This document shows, piece after piece, positions 3,764-45,640 of a stretch of 64,000 bases of DNA. Origin of the DNA: Roseibium sp. TrichSKD4 (GTDB lineage Bacteria > Pseudomonadota > Alphaproteobacteria > Rhizobiales > Stappiaceae); NCBI RefSeq assembly GCF_000148725.1, contig NZ_GL476304.1:212527-276526 (forward strand), read 5' to 3'. The notes beneath the pieces are model-generated. The model was given only the letters and a program-made list of their open reading frames with translations. It was not told the origin of the DNA and ran no database searches. The stretch's first letter is position 1. Each line of letters opens with the position of its first letter. A program made the position numbers and the translations under genes.

Positions 3764-4933
3764 TTACAGCCAGCCAAACAACAGCTCTCCGAGACTGTCC
3801 TTTGCGCGGGAGAGCAAATCGCCCTTTTCAATGCGTTTTCCACCGGTTAGCAGCCCAACGTGGTGAACTTGTCGATCTCCTGAAAAAACACGAAGCTTTC
3901 CAACACGTTTTCCCGGCTCAACAGGGGCAACAACCGGGCCTGAATAAGTGACCCGCAGCTTGTATCCCAGCGCTCCACTTTTGGGCAAAAGCACGGCAAT
4001 ATTGCGCTCTGCGATCAATGGCACTTCACTCTCGATGCCACCAAAGACCCGAGCCATCGCAACCACGTCTCCTTTGGAATACAACTGTCGAACCGAGAAA
4101 TAGTCCCACGCACCGTCGACAACCTGTTTTAACGCCTTGATCCGGGCCTTTGCAGATGGTGATCCAGCGACAACAGCGATGACACGGCGTCCGTCTCGAT
4201 TAAGGGAGGCAAGTGACGCAAACCCGCCCTTCTCGCTTGAGCCGGTTCCCAAACCATCCAGCCCACGCATTTCGCCTATCAATGGATTGCGATTACGTTG
4301 GTAAATATCATTCCAGGTGAACTCGTTGAGCGCAAAGAGAGGATACCGGTCAGGAAATTCCTGCAACATGTGAAAGCCCAAAGTGGCCATATCTTCGACT
4401 GTGGTTGCTGCGCCGTCAACGTCAAACCCGGCTGGGCTTAAAAACTGGCTGTTGGTAAGGCCAATCTCGCGAGCGTATGCTGTCATCCGGTCCGCAAATG
4501 TTTTTTCATCACCGTCAAGACATTCGGCCAGAATGATCGCAGCGTCATGCGCCTGATGAACAAGCAATCCTTTCAATAGGTCCAGCACAGAGATGGAGGA
4601 CCCCAGCTCGGCAAACATTGTTGTGCCGCCTGCAGGTGCACCACCTGTGCGCCAGGCATGCTCACTTACCTTACATTCCTGCGCTTCAGTCACTTCAACG
4701 TCTTTCAATGCCTTGAAGACAGTGGCTGCAGTCATGATCCTCGATAGGCCGGCAGGTTGGAATGTTTTCTCAGCTGCTTTTGCGTAGAGAACAGACCCGG
4801 TTTTCACCTCCATCAAGAACGCCATCGGCGCAGCAGTATCAAGCGTTTCAGCAGAAGTGATCGGCGCCGCAACGCAACACCCGAATAACGCGATGCAAAG
4901 GCTCGCTAACCGCCCCTTGAAGAAATCAGACAC
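3764..4933 (-). CDS. PBP5/DacC-like protein, catalytic motifs lost
   Basis: A 389-residue protein with an N-terminal signal peptide and the fold signature of D-alanyl-D-alanine carboxypeptidases (peptidase S11 plus C-terminal PBP5 domain). It occupies the normal dacC position between rlpA and tmk. The conserved scaffold is clear (WRTGGAPAGGTTMF, DLLKGLLVHQAHDAAIILAE, FTWNDIYQRNRNPL). The three active-site motifs are all altered: SxxK reads GLSR within QPAGLSRIMT, SxN reads QAH, and KTG reads GTG within DGLGTGSS. It should therefore be unable to acylate or cleave peptidoglycan. It is probably a periplasmic pseudoenzyme or binding protein, and it is otherwise full length with an open frame. Confidence 0.88.
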   Translation of the reverse strand: MSDFFKGRLASLCIALFGCCVAAPITSAETLDTAAPMAFLMEVKTGSVLYAKAAEKTFQPAGLSRIMTAATVFKALKDVEVTEAQECKVSEHAWRTGGAPAGGTTMFAELGSSISVLDLLKGLLVHQAHDAAIILAECLDGDEKTFADRMTAYAREIGLTNSQFLSPAGFDVDGAATTVEDMATLGFHMLQEFPDRYPLFALNEFTWNDIYQRNRNPLIGEMRGLDGLGTGSSEKGGFASLASLNRDGRRVIAVVAGSPSAKARIKALKQVVDGAWDYFSVRQLYSKGDVVAMARVFGGIESEVPLIAERNIAVLLPKSGALGYKLRVTYSGPVVAPVEPGKRVGKLRVFSGDRQVHHVGLLTGGKRIEKGDLLSRAKDSLGELLFGWL

Positions 4934-6482: not shown

Positions 6483-6572
6483 GGAAGAGTGGTCGAGTGG
6501 TTTAAGGCACCGGTCTTGAAAACCGGCGTGCGGGGAACCGTACCGTGGGTTCGAATCCCACCTCTTCCGCCA
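6483..6572 (+). tRNA. tRNA-Ser (anticodon TGA)
   Basis: A 90-nt class II tRNA with encoded CCA. The acceptor stem is ggaagag/ctcttcc, the anticodon arm is ccggtcttgaaaaccgg with TGA in the loop, there is a long variable arm, and the T-arm is gtgggttcgaatcccac. A TTGACA hexamer at 6445-6450 could be its -35 element; no clear -10 was seen. The 348 nt between rlpA and this tRNA hold no gene that I can support. An integrase begins just past its 3' end, so the 3' half is the likely attachment site. Confidence 0.95.
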
Positions 6573-6683
6573 ATTCCCTTTCCTAATCAAACCCAAATCG
6601 GCCCAAAACAGCTTGTTTTCGCAGGTTGGGCGTGAAATCGTGTTCCCGTTTGTTCCCATCCTTTCCCACACATACCCGCTCAG

Positions 6684-7991
6684 ATGCGGGTACGAATGCG
6701 GGTATCGGGATTTGAAAAGCGGGTATGGCCGGTGTTGAGCGACGCAAAAATCCGAAAAACAAAAGTTCCTGAGAAACCGCAAAAGCTTGCAGACAGCTAT
6801 GGGCTTCATCTCTATCTGACCCCAGCTGGCGGAAAGTTCTGGCGGTATCGGTACCGCTATGAGGGGAAGGAAAAGCTGCCCTCCTTGGGAGAGTACCCGC
6901 ATGTTAGCTTGGCCGATGCAAGGGCGTTGCGTGATGAGGCAAGAGCTATACTGGTCTCCGGAAACGACCCATCCAAGGTCAAAAAAGCAGAAAAATCTGC
7001 TGCAGCCATCGCTCCAGATCGCTCTTTTGAGGCAATCGCACGTGATTGGCACAAACTGAATGAGACCACTTGGACAGAGAAACATCGCGGCGAGGTTTTG
7101 ACGAGTCTAGAGGTCGAGGTATTCCCGACCTTGGGCAAACTCCCCATCGACGAAATCACAGCCTTGCAGGTTCTTGAAACACTGCGAAAAATCGAAGCTA
7201 GAGGTGCAAAGGAAAAGGCTCGCCGAGTTCGCCAGAGAATGTCTGCGGTGTTTGTCTACGGAATCGCCATGGGGATTTGCGAAAACGATCCTGCCGCCCA
7301 AGTCCAAAAGGCTATGGCGCCATTAAAGAAGGGCCGACAGCCCGCTGTTACCGATCTGCTTGAATGTCGGGAGATAATCAAAAGGGTCGAGACTACGCCG
7401 GGGCATCCCGTGACCAAGCTGGCGCATCGCCTTTTAGCGATTACAGCACTTCGACCTGGCGCATTGATAAACACGCCTTGGTCGGAACTAAACGGGCTGG
7501 ATGAGGAAGACCCTGTTTGGGTGCTGCCTGCAGAAAGAATGAAGATGAGACTTCATTTGAAAAATGATGACGCAAGGGATCACCTAATCCCCCTTCCCGC
7601 ACAGGCTGTCGAGATTATTGATGCTCTAAGAAAATTCTCTGGTCGACAACCCTTTGCTTTCCCAAACAGCCGGCACGCGCACAAGCCGATGTCAGAGAAT
7701 GCAATCGGCTATCTTCTCAACAGAGCCGGATATCATCACAAGCATGTACCCCACGGTTGGCGCTCCTCTTTTTCGACAATAATGAATGAACGCCATCCGG
7801 ATAGCCGGGCCATCATAGATTTTACGCTTGCACACGTCCCGAAGGACAAGGTTGAAGCCGCGTATAACCGCGCTCTTTATCTGAAACAACGAAGAGAACT
7901 TCTGCAGGAATGGGCTAATATTCTGCTGGTGGATCAAATGCCTATCTCGGAGGTCGTCAAAACGCCACGCAGGGTGTTTAAGTCGAAGTGA
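6684..7991 (+). CDS. Tyrosine integrase with DUF4102 arm-binding domain
   Basis: A 435-residue prophage/island integrase. The N-terminal arm-type DNA-binding domain (LADSYGLHLYLTPAGGKFWRYRYRYEGKEK) is followed by the SAM-like domain and a C-terminal catalytic domain. Catalytic residues are visible: Arg in ITALRPGAL near 257, HxxR as HGWR near 357, a His in TLAHVP, and the Tyr nucleophile in VEAAYNRAL. Family starts usually lie just before DAKIRK, so GTG 6732 or TTG 6735 is as likely as the ATG at 6684. It starts 112 nt after tRNA-Ser and reads away from it, the standard arrangement for tRNA-targeting islands. It appears intact. Confidence 0.92.
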   Translation: MRVRMRVSGFEKRVWPVLSDAKIRKTKVPEKPQKLADSYGLHLYLTPAGGKFWRYRYRYEGKEKLPSLGEYPHVSLADARALRDEARAILVSGNDPSKVKKAEKSAAAIAPDRSFEAIARDWHKLNETTWTEKHRGEVLTSLEVEVFPTLGKLPIDEITALQVLETLRKIEARGAKEKARRVRQRMSAVFVYGIAMGICENDPAAQVQKAMAPLKKGRQPAVTDLLECREIIKRVETTPGHPVTKLAHRLLAITALRPGALINTPWSELNGLDEEDPVWVLPAERMKMRLHLKNDDARDHLIPLPAQAVEIIDALRKFSGRQPFAFPNSRHAHKPMSENAIGYLLNRAGYHHKHVPHGWRSSFSTIMNERHPDSRAIIDFTLAHVPKDKVEAAYNRALYLKQRRELLQEWANILLVDQMPISEVVKTPRRVFKSK

Positions 7992-8372: not shown

Positions 8373-8657
8373 TTGCACAATATAGAATCTCGATTTCGCC
8401 GATTGGTCGCGGAAGTTCTGGAAATAGACCCGAAAACTATTAAGCCTGACAGCACCCTTGAACAACTTGGATCAGACAGCTTGCGTGGTCTGGAAATCAT
8501 TATGGAAGCTGAGTTGGCTTTCCTGTGCAACCTACAAGGTCAACAAATTGGGCAGACTGATTACCAAAACTGGCAAAGTTTGACCTTCGTGCAAGCCCTC
8601 AACCAAATTCTACAAGCTTGCCATCACTCTTGGAATTCTTTCGACTATTCAATATGA
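8373..8657 (+). CDS. Stand-alone acyl/peptidyl carrier protein
   Basis: A 94-residue four-helix carrier protein. The phosphopantetheine attachment motif reads LGSDSLRGLEI at about residues 32-42, with Ser in DSL as the expected modification site. The helix I region (RRLVAEVLEIDPKTIKPDSTLEQLG) is standard for acyl carrier proteins. The start is probably TTG 8373, because there is an in-frame stop at 8352 and no ATG; the ribosome site is weak. No ketosynthase, ligase or phosphopantetheinyl transferase is adjacent, so partners must be elsewhere or lost. The C-terminus (HHSWNSFDYSI) is unusual. It lies between the integrase and the IS3-type element. Confidence 0.75.
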   Translation: MHNIESRFRRLVAEVLEIDPKTIKPDSTLEQLGSDSLRGLEIIMEAELAFLCNLQGQQIGQTDYQNWQSLTFVQALNQILQACHHSWNSFDYSI

Positions 8658-15507: not shown

Positions 15508-15864
15508 ATGAATACAAACCGTGCTGTTGAGATAGTAGTTGCTGCTGACGAACCAGCTCTTTTCTATGATTCCATTGCTTCCGCAGAATTGCACCTTGAA
15601 TCGACTGACGTTCAGGATGGCGTATATGGCCCTGTTTTCGGCATCAAAGGTGAAGTCTACAGTATCAGAACTGCCGGGGACCGTGTAGCAATCATAGCCG
15701 ATCCTTTGGGACGAACCGATGTAATTGGCCTCAAAGAGGTGCTTTCAACTTTTTTGCGCACAATTAAACCCGACATGGTTATCCCTGACTGTTTGGATAC
15801 GATGTTACAATTGTGCACTCCCTACCTTGAATCTGTTTCCGTTATGCAGAAAACGCAATCATAA
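15508..15864 (+). CDS. Hypothetical protein
   Basis: A 118-residue acidic protein (MNTNRAVEIVVAADEPALFY...). No family recognised. Its last six bases overlap the stop of the leftward IS5-type transposase, so the C-terminus may be altered by the insertion. It is isolated between the PepSY gene and the insertion sequence. Confidence 0.4.
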   Translation: MNTNRAVEIVVAADEPALFYDSIASAELHLESTDVQDGVYGPVFGIKGEVYSIRTAGDRVAIIADPLGRTDVIGLKEVLSTFLRTIKPDMVIPDCLDTMLQLCTPYLESVSVMQKTQS

Positions 15865-16613
15865 CCAAAATGCGACGAGCATTGCCAAAGCGACTGCCGA
15901 GTGGAAGTTTCTGGCGAGCTTGTCATATCGGGTTGCGACACGGCGAAAATCTTTCAGCCTGCAAAACGCATTCTCTATCAAGTGACGATCTTTGTATCGA
16001 ACCTTGTCATATTTGATTTTCCGCAGGCGGTTTGACCTGCCAGGAATGACGGGAACAATTGCCTGTTCTCTCAACCGCTTACGCAAGGCATTTGCATCAT
16101 ACCCCTTGTCCCCGAGTAGATATCTTGCCCCTTTAAGGTCATCCAGCAGGCGCGGTGCGACCGGACTATCTGCTTCATTACCGCGTGTAAGGGTGAAAGC
16201 AAAGGGTCGGCCAATTACGTCTGTAAGGGCGTGAATTTTGGTGGTTTGGCCGCCGCGTGAGGGTCCAATCGCCTGATTTTTTGCCCCCCTTTACCGCCAT
16301 GGGCAGAACGATGAGCTTTCACATAGGTGCTGTCGATTGCAGTGCTTTTGGTAACTGCACTAGAGGTAGCAAGCACCTCCAGAAGTGCACTCCAAAAACG
16401 TTTGTAGGACCAGCGGTTGAAGCGATTGTAGACCGTAGTCGAGGGGCCATACTGTTCTGGGCAATCACACCACCGGCAACCGGTCTTCAGAACATGGATT
16501 ATACCGGAAATTACCCGTCGGTCGTCCACACGGTGCGCACCACCTTTGTGACGAGGCAAAAGGGGGGCTATCCCAGCCCATTGATCGTCTGACAACCAAA
16601 ATAAGTGTGACAT
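15859..16613 (-). mobile_element. IS5-family transposase with -1 frameshift
   Basis: One transposase in two overlapping frames. OrfA (16613 down to ~16260) starts MSHLFWLSDDQWAGIAPLLP and carries the first catalytic Asp in STAIDSTYVKAHRS. After the GGGGGGCAAAAAATC tract near 16275-16290 the frame must slip back one base to read QKNQAIGPSRGGQTTKIHAL and on through YLLGDKGYDA and RLREQAIVPVIPGR to YKDRHLIENAFCRLKDFRRV, ending at 15859. The A-run fits programmed -1 frameshifting known in the IS427-type group of IS5. Both halves are otherwise intact. I could not define matched inverted repeats, so one end may be lost. Confidence 0.82.
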
Positions 16614-16956
16614 CCAAGCCTCCAAATCACTGATATGAAACCTTGAATCTGATTTGTTAAATCTAATCAAGAGTATCAATGAGTTTTGAACCTAAAAGTA
16701 TTCAATTCTGAAGGGTGAAACCGAACCTACGATTTCGAAACTACAAACACTGTGTTCCCGGAATGGCTTGAATTTCGCTTACATTGTACTTGGCGTGGAT
16801 CTCAATCCCGAAACCGAAGCAATTTTGAAACTACTTCACTCGAAACCCGATAAAGTTCTTCCTCTACTCGCTTTGCTGAGTGACTAGCTTCCGAATGCCT
16901 GCGTGATTGCCGCGAAGTGCCTCTCGCATACTGTTGGCGTATTGAACAATTATCAT

Positions 16957-17127: not shown

Positions 17128-17279
17128 AACGCGCTTAGATTCAGCGAAAGACCCTCACCCTCTACTTACGTAGTTTGCTCTAGACTTCGGTACGGAACCC
17201 GAATTTTTCGGCCACGTGCTACTGGTTAATAATGCGTTTATTGATTTTGTACAGTTTTCCGCATTCGAGGGATAAACCC

Positions 17280-17843
17280 ATGAGCAAGATCTTCGATGAT
17301 AAGTGTACTTCCGGAGCCTTAGGGCATCCGCAAGCTGCGAGGGGTGCCGGACAAAAGGACAAGTTTTCCCGCTTGTTAAAAAATAATAATAATGAGGCAG
17401 GTGAGGCTAGCAAGAAGAGTGTTTGGCCCAAAGGACCCGGTCCCCAGAAGCCCGGCAAGGGCGGCTGCCAGATACCGCCCCCAGACGATTGTGGGAAGCC
17501 ATCTGCGGATATCACGACGCTTGCAATTGGCGAAGAAGATGGAGGCGTCTGCCCTGGTGATCCGGGACTGAAACCTCCGACTGACATCACCACGCTTGCA
17601 ATTGGCGAAGAAGACGGAGGCGTCTGCCCTGGTGATCCGGGACTGAAACCTCCTGCGGATATCACCACGGCAGCGATCGGTGAAGAAGACGGAGGCGTCT
17701 GCCCTGGTGATCCGGGACTGAAACCTCCTGCGGATATCACCACGGCAGCGATCGGTGAAGAAGACGGCGGTGTAAACCTTCCAGATCCAGGTTTGAAGCC
17801 CCCGGGAAAGATCACCACTCTGGCGTTGGGCGAAGAAGGCTGA
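17280..17843 (+). CDS. Multi-core graspetide precursor, plesiocin-like
   Basis: A 187-residue repeat protein starting at ATG 17280, with a GAGGG ribosome site about eight bases upstream. Residues 1-73 form a leader (basic, with a helix candidate KDKFSRLLK at 27-34, then a Gly/Pro/Lys linker). Residues 74-186 hold five core units with a strict 25-residue period. TTxxxxEE motifs lie at 79-86 and 104-111 (TTLAIGEE), 129-136 and 154-161 (TTAAIGEE), and 179-186 (TTLALGEE). Linkers read DGGVCPGDPGLKPP, except the fourth, which lacks the Cys (NLPDPGLKPP). TTxxxxEE is the core motif of group 2 graspetides such as plesiocin, where two Thr hydroxyls are ester-linked to two Glu side chains. The ATP-grasp gene follows. 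Product identity is inferred. Confidence 0.85.
   Translation: MSKIFDDKCTSGALGHPQAARGAGQKDKFSRLLKNNNNEAGEASKKSVWPKGPGPQKPGKGGCQIPPPDDCGKPSADITTLAIGEEDGGVCPGDPGLKPPTDITTLAIGEEDGGVCPGDPGLKPPADITTAAIGEEDGGVCPGDPGLKPPADITTAAIGEEDGGVNLPDPGLKPPGKITTLALGEEG
17499..17837 (+). repeat. Tandem 75-bp coding repeats (five cores)
   Basis: Four full 75-bp units and a shortened fifth encode the graspetide cores. Units 1-3 share a stretch of more than 35 identical bases over the linker, and units 3 and 4 share the same Ala-Ala core at DNA level. This implies recent expansion by unequal crossing-over. Unit 4's linker and unit 5 have diverged. Confidence 0.95.
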
Positions 17844-17882
17844 TCCCCTCCTCTCTCTGCCTACCAAAATGGGGGCGTGTCG

Positions 17883-17909
17883 AAGCCGGAAGTTATCAAC
17901 TTTCGGCTT
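17883..17909 (+). promoter_or_regulatory. Hairpin between precursor and ligase genes
   Basis: A 12-bp stem with one mismatch (aagccggaagtt / aactttcggctt) and a 3-nt loop lies 40 nt after the precursor stop. It lacks a T-run, so full termination is unlikely. It could attenuate transcription or protect the precursor mRNA, so that more precursor than enzyme is made. Confidence 0.5.
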
Positions 17910-18043
17910 GACCCTTGATGCCCATATTGTGCTTTGATGCAATTTCGATCCGCGATGGTTGTCGTCGCAGGCAACGAACCGTCACTGCCGGTTGTTTGAG
18001 TTTAGTGACTTGATATTTTCATGTGAAAGGGACGGAGAGTCCA

Positions 18044-18919
18044 GTGTTGCTCCTTGCCGGTGGAACTGAAGATCCTCAAATTGCCCATCTCAAGAACCGA
18101 GCGGAATCGCGCGGCCTTGACCACTTGTTTCTGGATGTCGATGACTCGGAAACCGATTTTTTCTGGGATGTTCGTTCAGGACTTGTGAAAGTCCGGAATG
18201 AACCTCTCAATGTTGCAAGTGTATTTCTCCGGCAGAATGTCTTCCGTTATCTGCGTACAAAGGACGAAACTGACAGCCTCAATGCCCAGGCCTGGAAGGG
18301 GCTTTTGGATGGGTACATTTGGGCAAATTCCAGACTTCGGGTTTTCAATCGCAGGTTTGTCCTGCGCTCAAGCGTCAACAAGCCACTTGCGCTTGCATGG
18401 GCACTGGAAGCTGGCCTCGACATTCCGCGTACTCAAATTCATGTTTCCAGGCAGCGGGCTCTCGATCAGATTTCCGAACATGCGACCGTATACAAACCAG
18501 TGACTGGCGGGGGATATTGTCAGGTTCTGGGAGAGGACATTCTCTCCGCCTTTCCGACCGACAGATTGCCAAGACCCTATATCTATCAGGAACGCTTGCT
18601 TTCCCCGGAAGTCAGGATATTCCGCGTGGGCGAGAAGTTTCTGGCGTTCCGAATTGAATCCGTTGAGCTGGATTACCGGTCGGTGGACCGGGAAAAGATC
18701 GAGATCACCCAGATACCACCGCCCGCGGATCTCGTTGAACCCTTGCGAAAATTGTTGGACCGCATTGGCCTCAACTTTTCTGCCGTCGATTTCAAGACAT
18801 CTTCCGATACAGGGACGCTGTGTTTTCTGGAGGCGAATTCCAACCCGATGTTCGCAGCGTTTGATCAGGTGTCAGATCACGCGCTTTGTGACGCCATGCT
18901 GGACTGGCTCACGGCTTGA
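18044..18919 (+). CDS. ATP-grasp ligase, graspetide macrocyclase
   Basis: A 291-residue ATP-grasp enzyme. The start is placed at GTG 18044, which gives the usual VLLLAG first strand and a purine-rich site GGACGGAGAG just upstream; GTG 18023 is possible. Features in order: N-terminal recognition region (VFLRQNVFRYL), ATP-binding VYKPVTGGGY near residue 155, adenine-contact YIYQERL, the RIFRVGEKFLAFRIES strand, LDYRSVD, and the Mg-binding end DFKTSSDTGTLCFLEANSNPMFAAFD. This C-terminal E-x-N-x-NP-MF signature is typical of graspetide (MdnB/C, PsnB-like) ligases. These activate Glu/Asp carboxylates as acyl phosphates and form esters or amides within the precursor. It lies 200 nt after the precursor on the same strand. 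Confidence 0.85.
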   Translation: MLLLAGGTEDPQIAHLKNRAESRGLDHLFLDVDDSETDFFWDVRSGLVKVRNEPLNVASVFLRQNVFRYLRTKDETDSLNAQAWKGLLDGYIWANSRLRVFNRRFVLRSSVNKPLALAWALEAGLDIPRTQIHVSRQRALDQISEHATVYKPVTGGGYCQVLGEDILSAFPTDRLPRPYIYQERLLSPEVRIFRVGEKFLAFRIESVELDYRSVDREKIEITQIPPPADLVEPLRKLLDRIGLNFSAVDFKTSSDTGTLCFLEANSNPMFAAFDQVSDHALCDAMLDWLTA

Positions 18920-19722: not shown

Positions 19723-19912
19723 CCCGTAACCTCCGTTTCAGATCCATGTTCTCGGCTCTTTCAGCCTTCAATTCCGCCTGCAGAAGTGTGTTTCTAGCCC
19801 GTTCAAGTGCCCATTCATCTTCGATGGTGGCGCCGGGTTTGCCGACGATTGAAATTCGAATGGACAGCTGACGCTCGGCTTCCTCGATCTGGTCTTCAAA
19901 ATGCCGCGTCAT
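19427..19912 (-). CDS. Coiled-coil phage protein overlapping its neighbour
   Basis: Starts at ATG 19912, inside the end of the helicase gene. The first ~63 residues (MTRHFEDQIEEAERQLSIRI, then EDEWALERARNTLLQAELKAERAENMD) form a convincing coiled coil. The remaining frame down to 19427 overlaps the better-supported gene beginning at 19722 and looks like out-of-frame translation. The true product is probably only the coiled-coil part, with a downstream frameshift or decay. Confidence 0.4.
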   Translation of the reverse strand: MTRHFEDQIEEAERQLSIRISIVGKPGATIEDEWALERARNTLLQAELKAERAENMDLKRRLRDASRKDQRHHAGRATVQEPRHQMSAVERATSDFAGIWKLDQRCSTNPKADKPPRRTPHMGGSICSDTNRKPQIGPDQRNDRGDKRPVLSLPKLAGTAG

Positions 19913-21160
19913 AGAGGTTTCCTTGATCCATATCGTCGAGGTCGAAGAACGAGGTTCTTGGACCGTCCCAACCAATGACCGCTACACCGCCATCGCGGCC
20001 TCTACGGCGTTTGGCGCAAATGAACTGCGCTTTGTCTTTCCATTCCTCGTACTGAGATTTCAGTTTCGCACGTTCGTTGTCACCGCTGGCGTTCTTGAAA
20101 AGGACATCCTGTATCTTCTTTTGCGGACGGTGCATTAAAAGCACCCATGAGGCTTTGTTTCTGACCCCTTGCCCACCGTACGAGTCTGACAACCTCAGAG
20201 AGATATCAGGGCGGTCATTGTAAATGGTTTTGACCTGACCCAATGCGATGATAGCAACGCCATGCTTCGTGGCGAGTTTGTCGAACTTTCTGCATGAGAC
20301 GATTACTTTTTCGGTGATCCCGGTTACACCGCGTTCCTCTGGCTCGACACCGTCTATAGTGTCAATGAACACGGCACCGCATCTGCCATGCTTGTGCTTG
20401 AATGCCAGGATCAGGGCTTCGATGTTCGATATCCGCATATCGTCGGTGTATTCGAAATAGGACTGGAGCCCGTGCTGTTTCATGTTGGCTGCACAGAGCT
20501 TTTCAAGATCGTCAGGGCGCAGCGTGCCGTCTTCAATATTCCTGCTATCAACACCTGTTCGTGCGATCATATCCTTGATGGCTATGTCTTCCGGCATTTC
20601 TTCATCTGAGATCGTTAGAACCGGATCCCGCAATGCGATGTGATTTGCCAATCCTCGCGCTTTAGCAGACTTCCCGTGACCTGACGGCCCAATCATTAAA
20701 CCGAAATCACCGGGAACAATCCGCCCCATGATGTCATCGAGCGCTCTGATACCCCAGTCATGGCCCCGGCCAGTTCCATTGCGGAGTGTTTGGTCTTGGT
20801 CCTTGATTGCCCGCTGACCGGCCTCGTGAATGGATATGCCAACCATAGGCCGTTGAGCCGCTGCCATGTTTGCAAGGAATGCGGAACCCTCCAGCGCCAG
20901 TTCCTCTCCTGATTTCCTGCCGTCGTTGAGGTCTTTCATCAGCTTGGAGGCAAATTCACTGAGACGAAGCCTTGTGGCTTGGGCACACAAGATTTCTGCC
21001 AGCTCGTCTTGGCTTAGGTCTCCTTTCGCCTTCTGCATGCAGACTGTCAAAAAGGCAGGCAGGCCCGGAATACCAAAGGCCGAAGGATCAATTTTCACCG
21101 CTTCCCGTAAAGCTGGAACCGATAGTGTTGTCCCAGACTTGGAAAGGGCTCGGACCATGC
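19896..21160 (-). pseudogene. DnaB-like replicative helicase, C-terminal part
   Basis: About 420 residues of a phage DnaB-type helicase. The RecA-like domain shows Walker A GPSGHGKSAKARGLANH, the DEEMPEDI segment, Walker B CGAVFIDTIDGV, and the sensor region ALGQVKTIYNDRPDISLRLSDSYGG. The N-terminus of the present frame (residues before MVRALSKSGTT) is foreign. The native N-terminal 46 residues lie on the opposite strand at 21547-21689. Flipping 21161-21682 restores one continuous gene (MIWEGMV-RALSKSGTT). As it stands the gene is broken, although the ATPase domain could still be translated. Confidence 0.85.
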
Positions 21161-21290
21161 GCTGAAAAGGGCGGGGCAATCCGCTTATTCCAAACAGATG
21201 GCTGCACCACGATTGGAGCCTGTGAAGGTGTCGAAAGCGGCTATGGAGCATGGAATATCGCAGGGCGGGAATTTCCGATCTGGCCGATGA
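21161..21290 (+). pseudogene. Tail of a gene split by the inversion
   Basis: A frame reading LKRAGQSAYSKQMAAPRLEP and ending TGA at 21288-21290. Its upstream part lies inverted at about 21690-21765 (minus strand), reading VWRIYLSADGTNFRDETGKK then IKKAS. Joining the two across the proposed inversion gives one uninterrupted frame. Protein family unknown. Confidence 0.55.
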
Positions 21291-24270: not shown

Positions 24271-24644
24271 TGCGCAAGATCGAAAACCCATTTGGTGGCC
24301 GATCAATCGACGAGTGGATCGGAGACACCCCGGATAGCCGCGTCCCAGATCGGGTCCGAGATCGTGTCTTCACTCGCCACAAGGGCATTTGCCACATCTC
24401 CGGCACCAAGATCAGAGCCGGTGACGCATGGGAGCTGGAGCACATCACACCGCTTGCTTTGGGCGGAGAGAACCGAGAATCTAATTTAGCCCCTGCCCTT
24501 GTCGAAGCCCACAAGGAGAAGACCAGCAGCGAGAAGGCTCAGATCGCTAAAGCCGACCGGATCAGACGGAAGCACCAGGGGACTTGGCCCGCCTCCAGAG
24601 CGAAAATCAAGAGCCGTGGTTTTGCCAGAACACGGGATGTCTGA
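24270..24644 (+). CDS. HNH endonuclease
   Basis: A 124-residue HNH nuclease starting at ATG 24270 ([10 protein letters not shown]), with GGGAGGA upstream and its A shared with the previous stop. The core reads [40 protein letters not shown] (His-His and Asn of HNH), and [15 protein letters not shown]. One zinc-knuckle Cys pair is incomplete (only ICHIS). Phage HNH proteins usually act in packaging or as homing-type nucleases. Confidence 0.85.
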
Positions 24645-24733
24645 ACCAAGAAAACGATAGGTTTTCTGCCGTTTTGAGAACTGAGCAGAACAGGCGAAAA
24701 TCAGAAACAACAAATACTGTGCAGGTGCAAATA

Positions 24734-25504
24734 ATGGCTGAGAACAGCAACATCGAATGGTGCCACCACACTTATAATCCATGGATTGGTTGTTCCAAGG
24801 TCAGTCCCGCCTGTGACCACTGCTATGCGGAGACCCAGAACAACCACCGAAAATGGGCGGAAGGCTGGGGACCGCATGCCGCGCGGAAGCGGACGAAGAC
24901 CCGATCCAACCTGCAGAAATGGGACAAGAAGGCGAATGAACTTGGTGTTCGGTACCGGGTCTTCTGTGCCAGCCTTGCGGACATTGGTGACAACCACAGA
25001 TCAATTGATCCGATTTGGCGCCGTCAACTGGTTGGGGATATTCGACAGTACACCAATCTGGATATCCTGCTGCTAACCAAGCGCCCTCAGAACATCCCGA
25101 CCCTGTACCCGGACCTTATGGAGGATTGGCCTTCGAATGCTTGGATCGGGACAACGGTTGAGAACCAGGTGGAAGCGGATCGGCGGATACCTCGTTTGTT
25201 GAAGCTTCCAGCACCCGTGCGTTTTGCGTCGGTTGAGCCCCTGCTTGGCCCTGTAGATTTAACTTCGCTTCCCTATGGGATGCCGATTGGCAATGCGCCA
25301 AGCTATCAGGACGCTTTGCGCGGCAAGATCTGGATGCAAGAGGGTTCTGTGACCTGGCCGACAGACAGCCGCGCTACGGTGAATGGCCGTACCTATGTTG
25401 ACCCGCAAGCCTGGCTCACATGGGTCCTTGCCCTAATCGCCGGCCACAAGATCACACGTCTCGACGAGCTCCTCCCATGGCGTTACGCTACTGAAGCAGC
25501 GTAA
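24734..25504 (+). pseudogene. Phage Gp37/Gp68 (DUF5131) protein, 5' part fused to IS66 scar
   Basis: Starts at ATG 24734. The first ~170 residues are a typical Gp37/Gp68 protein: [20 protein letters not shown] and CDHCYAE (three Cys suggesting an Fe-S site), [34 protein letters not shown] and [15 protein letters not shown]. The frame then leaves the family and ends in an IS66 transposase C-terminus. The normal second half (LDWVIVGGETG...) is found 4 kb away at 29359-29946. The gene is therefore interrupted and probably inactive, although a fusion could be made. Confidence 0.85.
25376..25504 (+). mobile_element. IS66-family transposase remnant (C-terminus)
   Basis: The last ~40 codons of the fused frame read [20 protein letters not shown] then [11 protein letters not shown], the distinctive end of IS66-type (TnpC) transposases. 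No other IS66 part is visible. It marks the left edge of the inserted metabolic cassette. Confidence 0.75.
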
Positions 25505-29358: not shown

Positions 29359-29946
29359 ATGCGGGTTCCGGCACAGGTTCGTTTTGTGTCGGTTGAGCCA
29401 CTGCTCAGCCCTGTCAATCTGATCTCGAATTTTGGAGGCACTCTGTGGATGGGTGGTCAACGCGGCTGTGTTGGCAATAATCAACACAATGGTAGAGTTG
29501 GAGATGTAGTCCACGGTCTTGTGCACGCGACTGATCCGAGGATGCCTCATCATCACCATGATGACAGATGTAAACCAGGGTTGGATTGGGTCATAGTCGG
29601 CGGCGAAACCGGCAAAGGTGCCAGACCGATGCACCCTGGCTGGGTCCGGTCAATCCGGGACCAATGCGCCGCCGCTGGTGTTCCGTTTTTCTTCAAACAA
29701 TGGTGCGATTGGCTACCGTGGGAACCGGAATATGGTCCCTGCTGGAAATCGCAAAACGGCAAGTCCGAAGACCGACACGTCTTATTCCCCTCCGACATAG
29801 ATAACGATCCCAAATGGAACGATGGCCTTTCATTCATCAATGAAGGACTGGACCACGCTGCGTTTCAGAAGGTCGGAAAGAAGACGGCCGGCAGAATGCT
29901 CGATGGTGTCATTCATGACGGCTATCCGCTGTCGTTCGCAGCGTAG
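29359..29946 (+). pseudogene. Phage Gp37/Gp68 (DUF5131) protein, 3' part
   Basis: About 195 codons with VRFVSVEPLLSPVNL at the start, then LDWVIVGGETGKGARPMHPG, RSIRDQCAAAGVPFFFKQW and KKTAGRMLDGVIHDGYP: the C-terminal half of a Gp37/Gp68 protein. It begins within the same motif at which the 5' half (24734-25504) leaves the family. The ~60-nt overlap differs at many positions, so the halves come from two related copies or have diverged. A His-rich insert (MPHHHHDD) sits before the conserved core. Confidence 0.8.
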
Positions 29947-30565: not shown

Positions 30566-30805
30566 GTGTCACCTCGCCCGATTCTCGTAAACCAGAAGGA
30601 AGCAGCGGCCATGCTCGGCATGTGCGTAAAAACCTTCGTGCGTTTACGGAACCGGGATTTCCGACTTATGCCCGCTGTTATCCCATAAACCGATATGGAG
30701 CGATATTTGGTCTCAGACCTTGAGGCTTGGGCACAATCAGTAAAATATCCGGCGAGCCAAGATAATGGCGCCGGAGGCATGTGGGATGACGAAAGTGCGG
30801 CTTAA
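30566..30805 (+). pseudogene. AlpA/excisionase-type HTH gene with in-frame stop
   Basis: An 80-codon frame from GTG 30566. VNQKEAAAMLGMCVKTFVRL is the winged-helix start of excisionase/AlpA proteins. TAA at 30686-30688 interrupts it, and in the same frame TDMERYLVSDLEAWAQSV follows, the usual closing helix. It overlaps the integrase start by 20 nt. A nonsense mutation is the simplest reading, which would leave the prophage without its directionality factor. Confidence 0.65.
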
Positions 30806-31856
30806 GGGGCTATCGATATATCAACGCCGCGGCAAGTGGTATGTATATTACCGCGCCAATCGGCATGCATTGGTGCAAGGCTTTGACGGCACGAGGGAAG
30901 AGCTGGACAAGCATTTGGCCTCCCCGGCTATCCTGAAACTGTATTCCGAAATTGCGGACCGTCCAAAGAACAAAGGATTTGGCACCCTTGGCGGTTTGTT
31001 TGAGTTCTACAAAACCAAAGAACGCTGGAAGAAGCTCGCACCGAGGACGAAAGCCGATTATCAGAAAGTGATTGATTGGCTGGAAGAGCGAAACCGCTTG
31101 AAGACACCAGTCATTGTCATTCGTCCGGCGGATATCGCCATGACACGTGACAAGGCCGCACAAGACAAATTTCCGAAGTTCTCGAATGAAACCCTGGCAC
31201 TCCTATCCGCCGCGTTCTCAACCGGTGTCGAATATGGATATGCCGGACTGAAGACGAATTCGGTTCTTGGGATAAGACGCCTGCACAAAAACTCAAAGGC
31301 TGCGAACCGCAGATGGACGATTGAGGAGTGGAACCGGGTCTGGTCAGTAACACCAGATCATTTGAAGATGGTTCTAGGGCTCGCGCGGTGGACAGGTGCC
31401 CGAGGTCAAGACATCGCCGTGTTGCGATGGGACCACCTCGAACGACAAGGCGAGACGTACACTTTCCTTGAGTACATCGCCAAGAAAAATCAGGCGGAGT
31501 GTGTTGTCGAAATCCCTGCCAGCCTGAACGCGCTTCTACAGTCAGAAACGCGCTTGACTCTGACAATCTGCAAGAACTCGAAGGGACGCCCCTATCCATC
31601 GGAAAACGCGATGCGAAAGGTTTGGCAGGAGTTCAAAGCAAGTGCTGAGTTCAAAGAAGCTTGCCCCAGCGGCCAAGATCTGACTTTGCATGGCTTGCGG
31701 GTGACCTATGCCAGTGAACTTCGAGAGAAGGACTTCACAGACGAAGAGATCGCGCGAGCGATTGGTGATAAATCCACAGCTATGGGCAAGCACTATGGGC
31801 GGGGTGCAGATGCGCGGAAATTTGCGCGGAAAGTCAGGGAAGCTATGGACCGCTGA
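30786..31856 (+). CDS. Prophage tyrosine integrase
   Basis: A 356-residue integrase from ATG 30786 (GGAGG-type site upstream; the frame extends to 30765). An N-terminal arm-binding region (KGLSIYQRRGKWYVYYRANR) is followed by a core-binding domain and the catalytic domain. Catalytic residues: Arg in ARWTGARGQDIAVLRW near 207, HGLRVTYASELR (HxxR), and Tyr in GKHYGRGAD. Intact. It lies on the 5' side of tRNA-Cys and reads toward it, the reverse of the usual tRNA-3'-end layout, so its target may not be this tRNA. Confidence 0.9.
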   Translation: MTKVRLKGLSIYQRRGKWYVYYRANRHALVQGFDGTREELDKHLASPAILKLYSEIADRPKNKGFGTLGGLFEFYKTKERWKKLAPRTKADYQKVIDWLEERNRLKTPVIVIRPADIAMTRDKAAQDKFPKFSNETLALLSAAFSTGVEYGYAGLKTNSVLGIRRLHKNSKAANRRWTIEEWNRVWSVTPDHLKMVLGLARWTGARGQDIAVLRWDHLERQGETYTFLEYIAKKNQAECVVEIPASLNALLQSETRLTLTICKNSKGRPYPSENAMRKVWQEFKASAEFKEACPSGQDLTLHGLRVTYASELREKDFTDEEIARAIGDKSTAMGKHYGRGADARKFARKVREAMDR

Positions 31857-31861
31857 GAACG

Positions 31862-31913
31862 TCAGATGAACAGAATTTGCCTAACACATCGGATCAAATT
31901 GCCTAACATCTGA
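31862..31913. repeat. Paired direct and inverted repeats after the integrase
   Basis: Two copies of ttgcctaaca (31877-31886 and 31899-31908) lie 22 bp apart, about two helical turns. They are enclosed by tcagatg and its inverse catctga (31862-31868, 31907-31913). Such spacing suits integrase arm-type or Xis binding sites. This is inference. Confidence 0.4.
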
Positions 31914-31972
31914 AATCTGCTCTTGACCAAATCTGCCAAGTCGTTGATAAGCCTGATCTCACACCACATCGG

Positions 31973-32046
31973 GGCCCTGTGGCGGAGTGGTGACGCAGCG
32001 GATTGCAAATCCGTGTACACCGGTTCGATTCCGGTCGGGGCCTCCA
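31973..32046 (+). tRNA. tRNA-Cys (anticodon GCA)
   Basis: A 74-nt tRNA with encoded CCA. The acceptor is ggccctg/cggggcc with one G-U pair, the anticodon arm is ggattgcaaatcc, and the T-arm is accggttcgattccggt. It marks the right edge of the accessory region. Confidence 0.94.
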
Positions 32047-32057
32047 TCTTCTTCCAT

Positions 32058-44542: not shown

Positions 44543-45640
44543 TCAGGCCGCTTTTCTGTGGGCGCCGAGCAATCCGCTGATCGCGGCAAGGTCCATGCCC
44601 TTCAGGCCAATCACAACGAGCTGACCCGCCTTGTCTGCTCCGGCAGCAAACCAGGTTTCAACACGTGGCCCCACCGCCTGAACCATGGCTGGCGCGGCTT
44701 TCCCTTCAATCGCCACAGCACCTTTGATACGCAGCACGCCCTTTTGCCCCATGGCCTCCAGAACCTTGGCTTCTGCCTCCTTCAGACTCGCAAAGGAAGC
44801 TACCGGCAGAACGTGACTTTCAAAATCATCATGGTGATGATGGTCATGATGGTGATGGTAACCCTCGTGGTCGTGGTCATGGTCGTGATGATGATCATCA
44901 TCGTGGTGATGGTGATGATGCTCATGGCGGGCAGCCATGTCATTTTCTGCGCCAGAACCCCGCCCGAGCAACACTTCGATCGGCAATAGGCCTTTTTCCG
45001 AGGAGACCATATGGACGTTTGCACGAAGGTCTTTTGCAATTTGTTCTTGAACCGCAGTCAGCTTTTCTGAAGCCACAAGATCGGCCTTGTTCAAAACCAC
45101 AAGATCCGCGCAGCGCAGCTGGTCTTGAAACAGCTCTTCTACGGGACTTTCATGGTCGAGCGCTTCATCTTTCGCACGCTGTGCCTCCAGCGCGGCCTCA
45201 TCCATTGCGATGCGGCCTTCAGCGAGCGCGGCGGCATCCAGCACCGTTACCACACCATCAACCGTGACTTTTGGTTTGACCGACGGCCACGAGAACGCAC
45301 GGACCAAAGGCTGAGGAAGGGCGAGCCCAGATGTTTCGATGACAATGTGCTCCGGTGGGTTTTCCCGCGCCAGCAGTATTTCCATGGTCGGGAGAAAGTC
45401 GTCTGCCACGGTGCAGCAAATGCAGCCATTGGTCAGTTCCACCACCTCTTCTGCGGCGCAGTCCGGATCGGCGCAGCCGTTGACCAGTGACCCATCAAAG
45501 CCCATATCGCCAAACTCATTGACAATCAGGGCAATCCGCTTTCCGTCCGCGTTTTGCAGAAGGTTGCGGATCAAGGTCGTCTTGCCGGCACCGAGAAATC
45601 CGGTGACGATGGTTGCCGGGATTTTTTGACCTGTTGTCAT
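44543..45640 (-). CDS. cobW: CobW GTPase / metallochaperone
   Basis: A 365-residue COG0523 GTPase. Walker A is TGFLGAGKTTLIRNLL, the metal motif GCICC appears as TNGCICCTVAD, ETSGLALPQPLVRAF is the switch region, and NKADL is the guanine-specificity motif. A His/Asp-rich stretch (about 25 of 35 residues; encoded near 44825-44935) precedes the C-terminal CobW_C domain and probably binds metal. CobW is thought to supply cobalt to CobN. It overlaps cobU by 4 nt and is 6 nt from cobN. Confidence 0.94.
   Translation of the reverse strand: MTTGQKIPATIVTGFLGAGKTTLIRNLLQNADGKRIALIVNEFGDMGFDGSLVNGCADPDCAAEEVVELTNGCICCTVADDFLPTMEILLARENPPEHIVIETSGLALPQPLVRAFSWPSVKPKVTVDGVVTVLDAAALAEGRIAMDEAALEAQRAKDEALDHESPVEELFQDQLRCADLVVLNKADLVASEKLTAVQEQIAKDLRANVHMVSSEKGLLPIEVLLGRGSGAENDMAARHEHHHHHHDDDHHHDHDHDHEGYHHHHDHHHHDDFESHVLPVASFASLKEAEAKVLEAMGQKGVLRIKGAVAIEGKAAPAMVQAVGPRVETWFAAGADKAGQLVVIGLKGMDLAAISGLLGAHRKAA

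Follow-up and report, generated by a model that had tools for sequence, protein, structure and literature searches.

A two-gene plesiocin-type graspetide locus in Roseibium sp. TrichSKD4 and its relatives with TTxAxGEE cores in larger proteins of Neomegalonema and phages

Introduction

The usual picture of a graspetide is that of a small product, guided by a leader and made from a compact gene cluster; genome mining for such products seeks a precursor gene beside a ligase gene. TTxxxxEE is the core motif of plesiocin, and a 64,000-nucleotide stretch of DNA from Roseibium sp. TrichSKD4 (contig NZ_GL476304.1, positions 212,527 to 276,526 of the forward strand; here called the window, in whose own numbering coordinates are given) contains a gene for a protein carrying this motif five times, followed on the same strand by a gene for an ATP-grasp ligase. 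What does such a pair make? The original prediction, drawn from the sequence alone, was that one chain gives up to five bicyclic peptides. The analysis presented here upholds the five cores, but relatives of the locus argue that the chain may stay uncut and form one multivalent stapled protein. We consider it highly probable that this is a two-gene plesiocin-type system in which each core receives two nested esters and the product is a multivalent stapled inhibitor.

The chemistry has precedents. In the literature, each repeat of the tetravalent plesiocin bears two esters (PMC12291112), plesiocin inhibits serine proteases potently and does so more strongly as the number of motifs grows (PMC13097080), and the graspetides characterized by 2022 are described as protease inhibitors (PMC8939145); it is this work on inhibition and valency that favors a multivalent stapled inhibitor here. 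A short leader element, at either end, can suffice for recognition (PMC13003496), and whole proteins, in engineered form, can be substrates of a related synthetase (PMC12291112), which makes natural protein substrates chemically plausible.

Results

The features that make up the locus are as follows.

17280..17843, + strand: precursor (substrate) protein, 187 amino acids, ATG start; N-terminal 77 residues, then five cores
17514..17537, + strand: core 1, TTLAIGEE, residues 79-86
17589..17612, + strand: core 2, TTLAIGEE, residues 104-111
17664..17687, + strand: core 3, TTAAIGEE, residues 129-136
17739..17762, + strand: core 4, TTAAIGEE, residues 154-161
17814..17837, + strand: core 5, TTLALGEE, residues 179-186
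18023..18919, + strand: ATP-grasp graspetide-type ligase; open reading frame from GTG 18023, likelier start GTG 18044

The cores, located by a motif search of the open reading frame, recur at a period of exactly 25 residues, and the last (TTLALGEEG) stops one residue short of the stop codon. All four residues to be linked, two threonines and two glutamates, are intact in five of five cores, and the loops between them (LAIG, LAIG, AAIG, AAIG and LALG) follow a narrow pattern of x-A-hydrophobic-G, part of which is the anchor used in our searches. At the DNA level the array is a 75-nt tandem repeat at 17503-17767, to which Tandem Repeats Finder gives a score of 404; the two other arrays in the whole window score 73 and 59. 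Given this score, and as none of 20,000 composition shuffles contained two or more TTxxxxEE motifs, we rejected a chance origin of the repeats. The precursor thus has the length, the five motifs and the period with which it was originally described.

The N-terminal 77 residues are leader-like and lack a hydrophobic signal: their hydropathy maximum is -0.04, as against 1.6-2.2 in four lipoprotein relatives, and starting instead from the ATG at 17232, further upstream, would bring in no obvious signal-like segment by eye. A GAGG stands 8 nt 5' of the ATG at 17280, also by eye. A Pfam scan assigned no family to the precursor or the ligase. The comparison with known families for which the original prediction called had a divided outcome, in that the ligase is closest to PsnB in the PDB but the N-terminal 77 residues match nothing among the fetched sequences, a set that does not include the plesiocin leader (best E 0.08).

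The ligase gene lies directly downstream of the precursor, and both reading frames are intact. Its call as an ATP-grasp ligase on the same strand holds, with the likelier start moved to GTG 18044, since the alignment has most homologues starting at that residue and the codon has a GGAG 6 nt before it (by eye); the resulting protein has 291 residues, ends in ...LEANSNPMFAAFD... and retains the positions that are invariant in an alignment with homologues. Among family models, NCBIfam TIGR04187 (GRASP_SAV_5884 ATP-grasp maturase) matched at E 1.2e-21 and 77.2 bits, short of its cut-off of 350, with the microviridin MvdC/MvdD models (about 31 bits; cut-offs 425 and 475) and the RimK-type glutamate ligase model TIGR00768 (32.4 bits; cut-off 143.4) also below their thresholds. 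A profile search of the PDB put PsnB first at E 1.6e-29, with the next best at 1.6e-15, and a fold comparison likewise gave PsnB as the nearest solved relative; the D-Ala ligases, synapsin and glutathione synthetase that it also listed we take to share the ATP-grasp fold only. The microviridin-type enzymes MdnB, MdnC, AMdnB, CdnC and PruB have weaker profile scores (1.6e-15 to 1.3e-11), and the microviridin core TxKxPSD, as given in PMC7823629, is absent from the precursor.

In a phylogenetic tree (LG+G4, with several long branches and a midpoint root used for drawing; of the 72 rows, five viral near-copies and a single short row were omitted), the window ligase is sister to those of Neomegalonema with support of 100/97. 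It belongs to a 47-row clade, composed of the window, 11 Neomegalonema, 10 other alphaproteobacterial and 25 phage ligases, which is set apart at 100/100 from PsnB, a ligase of Halocatena and the microviridin types (MdnB, MdnC, CdnC and PruB; the structures 5ig8 and 5ig9 are MdnB and MdnC by their titles, and AMdnB stood outside the tree). The window ligase is about 22% identical to PsnB. The tree proposed with the original prediction therefore gives the ligase a clade of its own, yet a clade enlarged by PsnB is not rejected (approximately unbiased test, p-AU 0.095). The Halocatena ligase, encoded on a Halocatena salina plasmid, is sister to PsnB (100/97), and upstream of position 3989 of that plasmid lies a frame with TTMAMGEE that ends in ...VHFIEELEERENATPIGVTTMAMGEEVGDLSLPLI, as in a single-core group 2-like precursor; the core motif is thus present on both sides of the branch that parts PsnB from the window clade. 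Among 72,556 plasmid records, eight matched the ligase, all at less than 60% identity (best 28% over 96%), and none matched the precursor.

Judged by its sequence, the locus belongs to the plesiocin-type (group 2-like) graspetides: like the plesiocin system (PsnA2/PsnB) it has tandem TTxxxxEE cores and a single ATP-grasp ligase. Its five cores, compared with four in plesiocin, are a modest step, so that the locus is ordinary as to class and unusual in its kin.

That kin is found chiefly in Neomegalonema. A scan of genome contigs returned as nearest ligases nine loci, all from uncultured Neomegalonema metagenome-assembled genomes, with 48-60% identity in the best segment; over the alignment, 11 Neomegalonema ligases are 46-49% identical to that of the window, and three further ligases, which come from the class and family samples described below, are 34-38% identical. 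One of these genomes, G002, has a full ligase gene and an extra truncated copy of its C terminus (L010, 8001-8243). A TTxAxGEE protein lies beside the ligase in four Neomegalonema genomes (L007, L008, L110, L112). Searched genome-wide, the pattern TTxA[.]GEE[DGNS] matched 71 times in eight of eight ligase genomes, and the reversed pattern not once; in a sample of the genus, all 14 genomes have 4-16 motif matches (116 in total; reversed control 1) and 11 have the ligase. Every one of these 11 has at least one motif match on a contig other than that of the ligase, and seven have none on the ligase contig. In G007, where the ligase contig is 154 kb and two motif contigs are 118 and 182 kb, the separation is not due to short contigs.

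The Neomegalonema substrates fall into three architectures over 33 loci. Class A (14 loci) has a hydrophobic segment that closes with a lipobox before the first core in all 14, with 2-10 cores per open frame (in two loci a contig end truncates the frame, and 11 pattern matches were counted in one gene that contains a masked run); three of these loci (L059, L065, L066) adjoin a GntR-aminotransferase regulator gene, confirmed by Pfam in L065. Class B (five loci) has 1-3 N-terminal cores and no lipobox, followed by RTX-like repeats, with Pfam HemolysinCabind in both proteins scanned (E 7.2e-12 and 3.2e-20). Class C (14 loci) comprises Ala/Pro-rich proteins, mostly of about 350-620 residues and without a lipobox, that end in an exact TTxxxxEE in 10 cases, in a degenerate core in three, and have lost the core in one. 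A linker like GPIPVEPDGGIGDGAGP recurs in otherwise unlike lipoproteins and RTX proteins (L052-L054, L057-L059, L062, L065-L067 and others), and its GGIGDGA is present in 10 of 14 class A, four of five class B and none of the class C loci; from its recurrence, it is a possible recognition element for the unlinked ligase. The window precursor shares the TTLAIGEED core with these proteins, and several of them likewise end in ...TT.A.GEEG, but it lacks both GGIGDGA and the signal-like segment of the lipoproteins, and its gene adjoins the ligase whereas the lipoproteins, RTX and long proteins of Neomegalonema are mostly unlinked to theirs.

Beyond the genus sample, the co-occurrence of ligase and motif was followed in samples of the class, the family and the order. 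In the class sample (385 genomes) the ligase matches at E 1e-8 or better in four: the matches in G001 and G108 are close, those in the other two weak (26-27%). The close two have 9 and 5 motif matches and the weak two none, with single matches in three other genomes and 1 in the reversed control. The family sample (149 genomes) has the ligase in four and the motif in the same four (9, 4, 2 and 1 matches; control 1), and one further match, in a G471 protein that reads as an outer-membrane protein, looks like chance. The order sample (390 genomes) gave 18 ligase matches at 1e-12, eight of them strong (G001 and seven more); the 10 weak ones (E 1e-13 to 1e-24) were discarded as relatives because they lie outside the window's clade and their fetched flanks encode no TTxAxGEE protein. 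Six of the seven further strong-ligase genomes have a multi-core open reading frame in the fetched flank, and the seventh, G769 (L119), has a KTxxxxEE array adjoining the ligase, in which Lys occupies the outer Thr position; the sequence suggests possibly a Lys-Glu amide instead of an ester. Two relatives have precursors of more conventional appearance: in G108 (L116), six TTxAxGEE-like cores with a period of mostly 20 directly precede the ligase, behind a leader that is weakly Nif11-like (E 0.005, under the Pfam cut-off), and the precursor of G790 (L124) is short, with a GG leader and two cores.

Contigs of uncultivated phages carry the pair as well. A single-sequence scan of viral contigs for the ligase found nothing; an alignment-based scan found 28 ligase loci (25-40% identity in the best segment), and the INPHARED phage records have one distant partial match. 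A looser core pattern, TxxA[.]GE, occurs in 13 of the 28 ligase-bearing records and its reversed control in none. At six loci (L149, L150, L152-L155) the ligase is directly upstream of a 518-1061-residue protein with an N-terminal core array. In G889, G894 and G895 the ligase lies by a DNA-polymerase-type gene (so called from a PHROG scan of the near copy L137, with the same frame in L136, L141 and L142) and the substrate is 10-13 kb off: in G889 and G894 the core protein is directly downstream of the portal gene (phrog_1216, 3.8e-51 and 4.1e-52), and in G895 the cores are in a protein with lytic-transglycosylase and tail matches. The phage arrays (L135-L162, L186-L188, L189-L267) read TT[MQR]A[MVI]GE[ED] and stand after the portal gene or in tail-region proteins; of seven array proteins compared with PHROG, six have no match. 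Gene order and family matches suggest that the phage core proteins may belong to the virion particle. A motif scan of viral sequences reported 82 stretches, of which we examined 80: 31 have at least two cores in one frame (maximum eight, L241), and 10 have the ligase in the same fetched stretch.

Within single phage proteins, cores with both outer residues alternate with cores that have neither, and this provides a way to ask whether positions 1 and 8 of the core belong together. With T2-x-[A etc.]-x-G-E7 as the anchor, we collected 144 distinct sites from 42 phage proteins, chosen for at least one full motif and mostly from contigs without a ligase in the fetched stretch. Thr/Ser1 and Glu8 are both present at 79 sites and both absent at 49, with Thr/Ser1 alone at 15 and Glu8 alone at 1 (p 8e-24, a value inflated by kinship; for the position before Thr1, p 0.06). 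Among 20 dissimilar proteins, the two positions agree at 68 of 74 sites, which none of 20,000 within-protein permutations reached. In Neomegalonema, where the positions vary little, Thr1 without Glu8 occurs at 0 of 103 sites. The outer residues of the phage cores are present or absent together as a Thr1-Glu8 link predicts, and at the level of sequence this covariation lends support to such a staple; the inner pair, Thr2-Glu7, is outside the reach of the test as it is part of the search anchor. Phage sites with Lys at position 1 mostly have Asp at position 8. Taken with the plesiocin-type cores and with PsnB as the best match by profile and fold, the covariation supports the original reading of plesiocin-type cores with an ATP-grasp ligase. 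Membership of group 2 as a clade may or may not hold: the ligase clade is separate from PsnB, yet joining the two is not rejected.

The remaining features of the surroundings that concern us are these.

17879..17912, + strand: stem-loop between the precursor and ligase genes
6684-7991: integrase beside tRNA-Ser (pair spans 6483-7991)
30765-31856: integrase beside tRNA-Cys (pair spans 30765-32046)

The strong stem-loop, which may be an attenuator or may affect RNA stability, came from folding of a 216-nt stretch that as a whole has a z of -2.46, its fold being equalled by 4 of 200 shuffles; three terminator-like sites occur in the region, where chance would give 3.2. Upstream of the locus are IS4/5-type transposase pieces (15859-16679), and downstream, from a DnaB-type helicase at 19896-21251 onward, are prophage-type genes. 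No sigma-70-like promoter matched on the locus strand, a weak test in such a host, and, as originally stated, no protease or exporter gene is seen adjoining the locus. The two integrase/tRNA pairs bracket the region that holds it, but for neither integrase was an attachment site found as a direct repeat of at least 14 bases; for tRNA-Cys, an inverted match of 15 bases and a direct one of 13 turned up and were put down to chance. The inverted match is between 32040-32054 (the tRNA-Cys 3' end) and 17532-17546 (core 1 DNA) and is probably accidental. A CobN-like protein of the window, named by reading, matches 151 of 372 alphaproteobacterial genomes, its best full-length matches being 55-60% identical within the alphaproteobacteria, the sole class searched. 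The description of the region as an alphaproteobacterial mobile island is consistent with the CobN-like matches and with the two integrases next to tRNA genes, but attachment-site repeats were looked for without success. Close to the CobN-like gene there is a tandem repeat of 18/21 nt (44825-44916). The window also contains a solitary acyl-carrier-protein-like (PP-binding) gene (8373-8657) and a DUF5131 gene in two pieces about 4 kb apart (24584-25501, profile 1-174; 29359-29943, profile 150-243), between which lie an IS66-type element end and genes of amino-acid metabolism (D-serine dehydratase-like, ornithine cyclodeaminase-like and LysR).

Discussion

In the model that we favor, the ligase would activate the side-chain carboxylates of both glutamates in each TTxxxxEE core and form nested esters, an outer one between Thr1 and Glu8 and an inner one between Thr2 and Glu7. 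The product would be a single protein with five eight-residue bicyclic hairpins on Gly/Pro-rich linkers, held by ten esters in all, with a predicted loss of 10 x 18 Da. By analogy with plesiocin, the stapled loops (LAIG, AAIG, LALG) would be multivalent serine-protease inhibitors, and the chain would act as one multivalent molecule and not as five released peptides. The sequences themselves establish the five cores, the ligase with its likeness to PsnB in sequence and fold and, among relatives, conserved Thr/Glu positions and an outer pair that covaries. We infer the reaction at this locus, the protease inhibition and the single-chain action, with inhibition proposed on the strength of the likeness to plesiocin.

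Several observations weigh against this model or its extension to the relatives. Three of the 14 Neomegalonema genomes have motif matches and no ligase match (the assembly of one, at 1.9 Mb, may be incomplete); 15 of the 28 ligase-bearing phage records lack the core pattern, though the records may be fragments; and 49 of the 80 viral motif stretches have a single core in frame, which may be chance. The pairing of the outer residues is broken at six of the 74 sites in dissimilar phage proteins (five with Thr1 alone, one the reverse), as it is at the 15 and 1 of 144 sites given above for all 42. Glu8 is kept at three of four Neomegalonema sites without Thr1, in a set with little variation, and at nine of 12 such sites in other alphaproteobacteria, where all nine have Lys for Thr; going by the residues present, these nine would allow a Lys-Glu amide.

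Could the locus instead encode a conventional ribosomally synthesized and post-translationally modified peptide, the chain being modified, its linkers cut and five small bicyclic peptides exported as separate protease inhibitors? The leader-core layout with its leader-like N-terminal region, the compact two-gene arrangement and the relatives G790 and G108, with their short GG-leader and weakly Nif11-like leader, all speak for it, and we regard it as a real but lesser possibility. Neither a protease nor an exporter is seen near the locus, however, and the Neomegalonema cores lie in lipoproteins, RTX and long proteins, 10 of the 14 last being core-terminated, which makes per-core release unnecessary. 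Rather unlikely, in our estimation, is a purely structural staple, whose esters would make Gly/Pro-rich proteins that are otherwise disordered more rigid, without any protease as target: the recurrence of cores in low-complexity parts of lipoproteins, RTX and phage late-region proteins makes protection or rigidity plausible, but the loop pattern, even if partly our anchor, is narrower than stapling alone should require, and inhibition is documented for plesiocin, whose core motif is the same (PMC13097080). That the pair is a decayed remnant, brought in by a mobile element and now silent or no longer working, is improbable, for despite its position between transposase pieces and prophage-type genes and the missing promoter match (again, a weak test in this host), the frames are intact, the five cores keep all four linked residues and the ligase keeps its invariant positions.

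The literature search turned up no account of graspetide or plesiocin staples in lipoproteins, phages or virions, or alphaproteobacteria, although, as it did not include the subscription surveys of 2020-2021, this is no proof of novelty. Taking the locus of the window together with its relatives, we lean, with some reserve, toward a more general idea: that the plesiocin hairpin is a portable protein modification, in which one ligase acts in trans on several unlinked TTxAxGEE proteins (the lipoproteins, RTX and C-terminally tagged proteins of Neomegalonema, and late-region proteins of phages, where doubly and singly stapled cores would alternate), with the window locus as a compact and mobile form that consists of two genes. 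For the ligases closest to that of the window, the substrates are encoded away from the ligase gene and within larger proteins, part of which bear lipoprotein signals; in phages, which encode both partners, the core is in late-region proteins. Should the chemistry prove to be as proposed, ester stapling would be a protein modification with possible roles in surface display and in the virion, and cluster-based mining would have missed many substrates. The covariation of outer Thr and Glu serves as a sequence-level read-out of ring topology, and what graspetides do for their producer would become testable in whole proteins.
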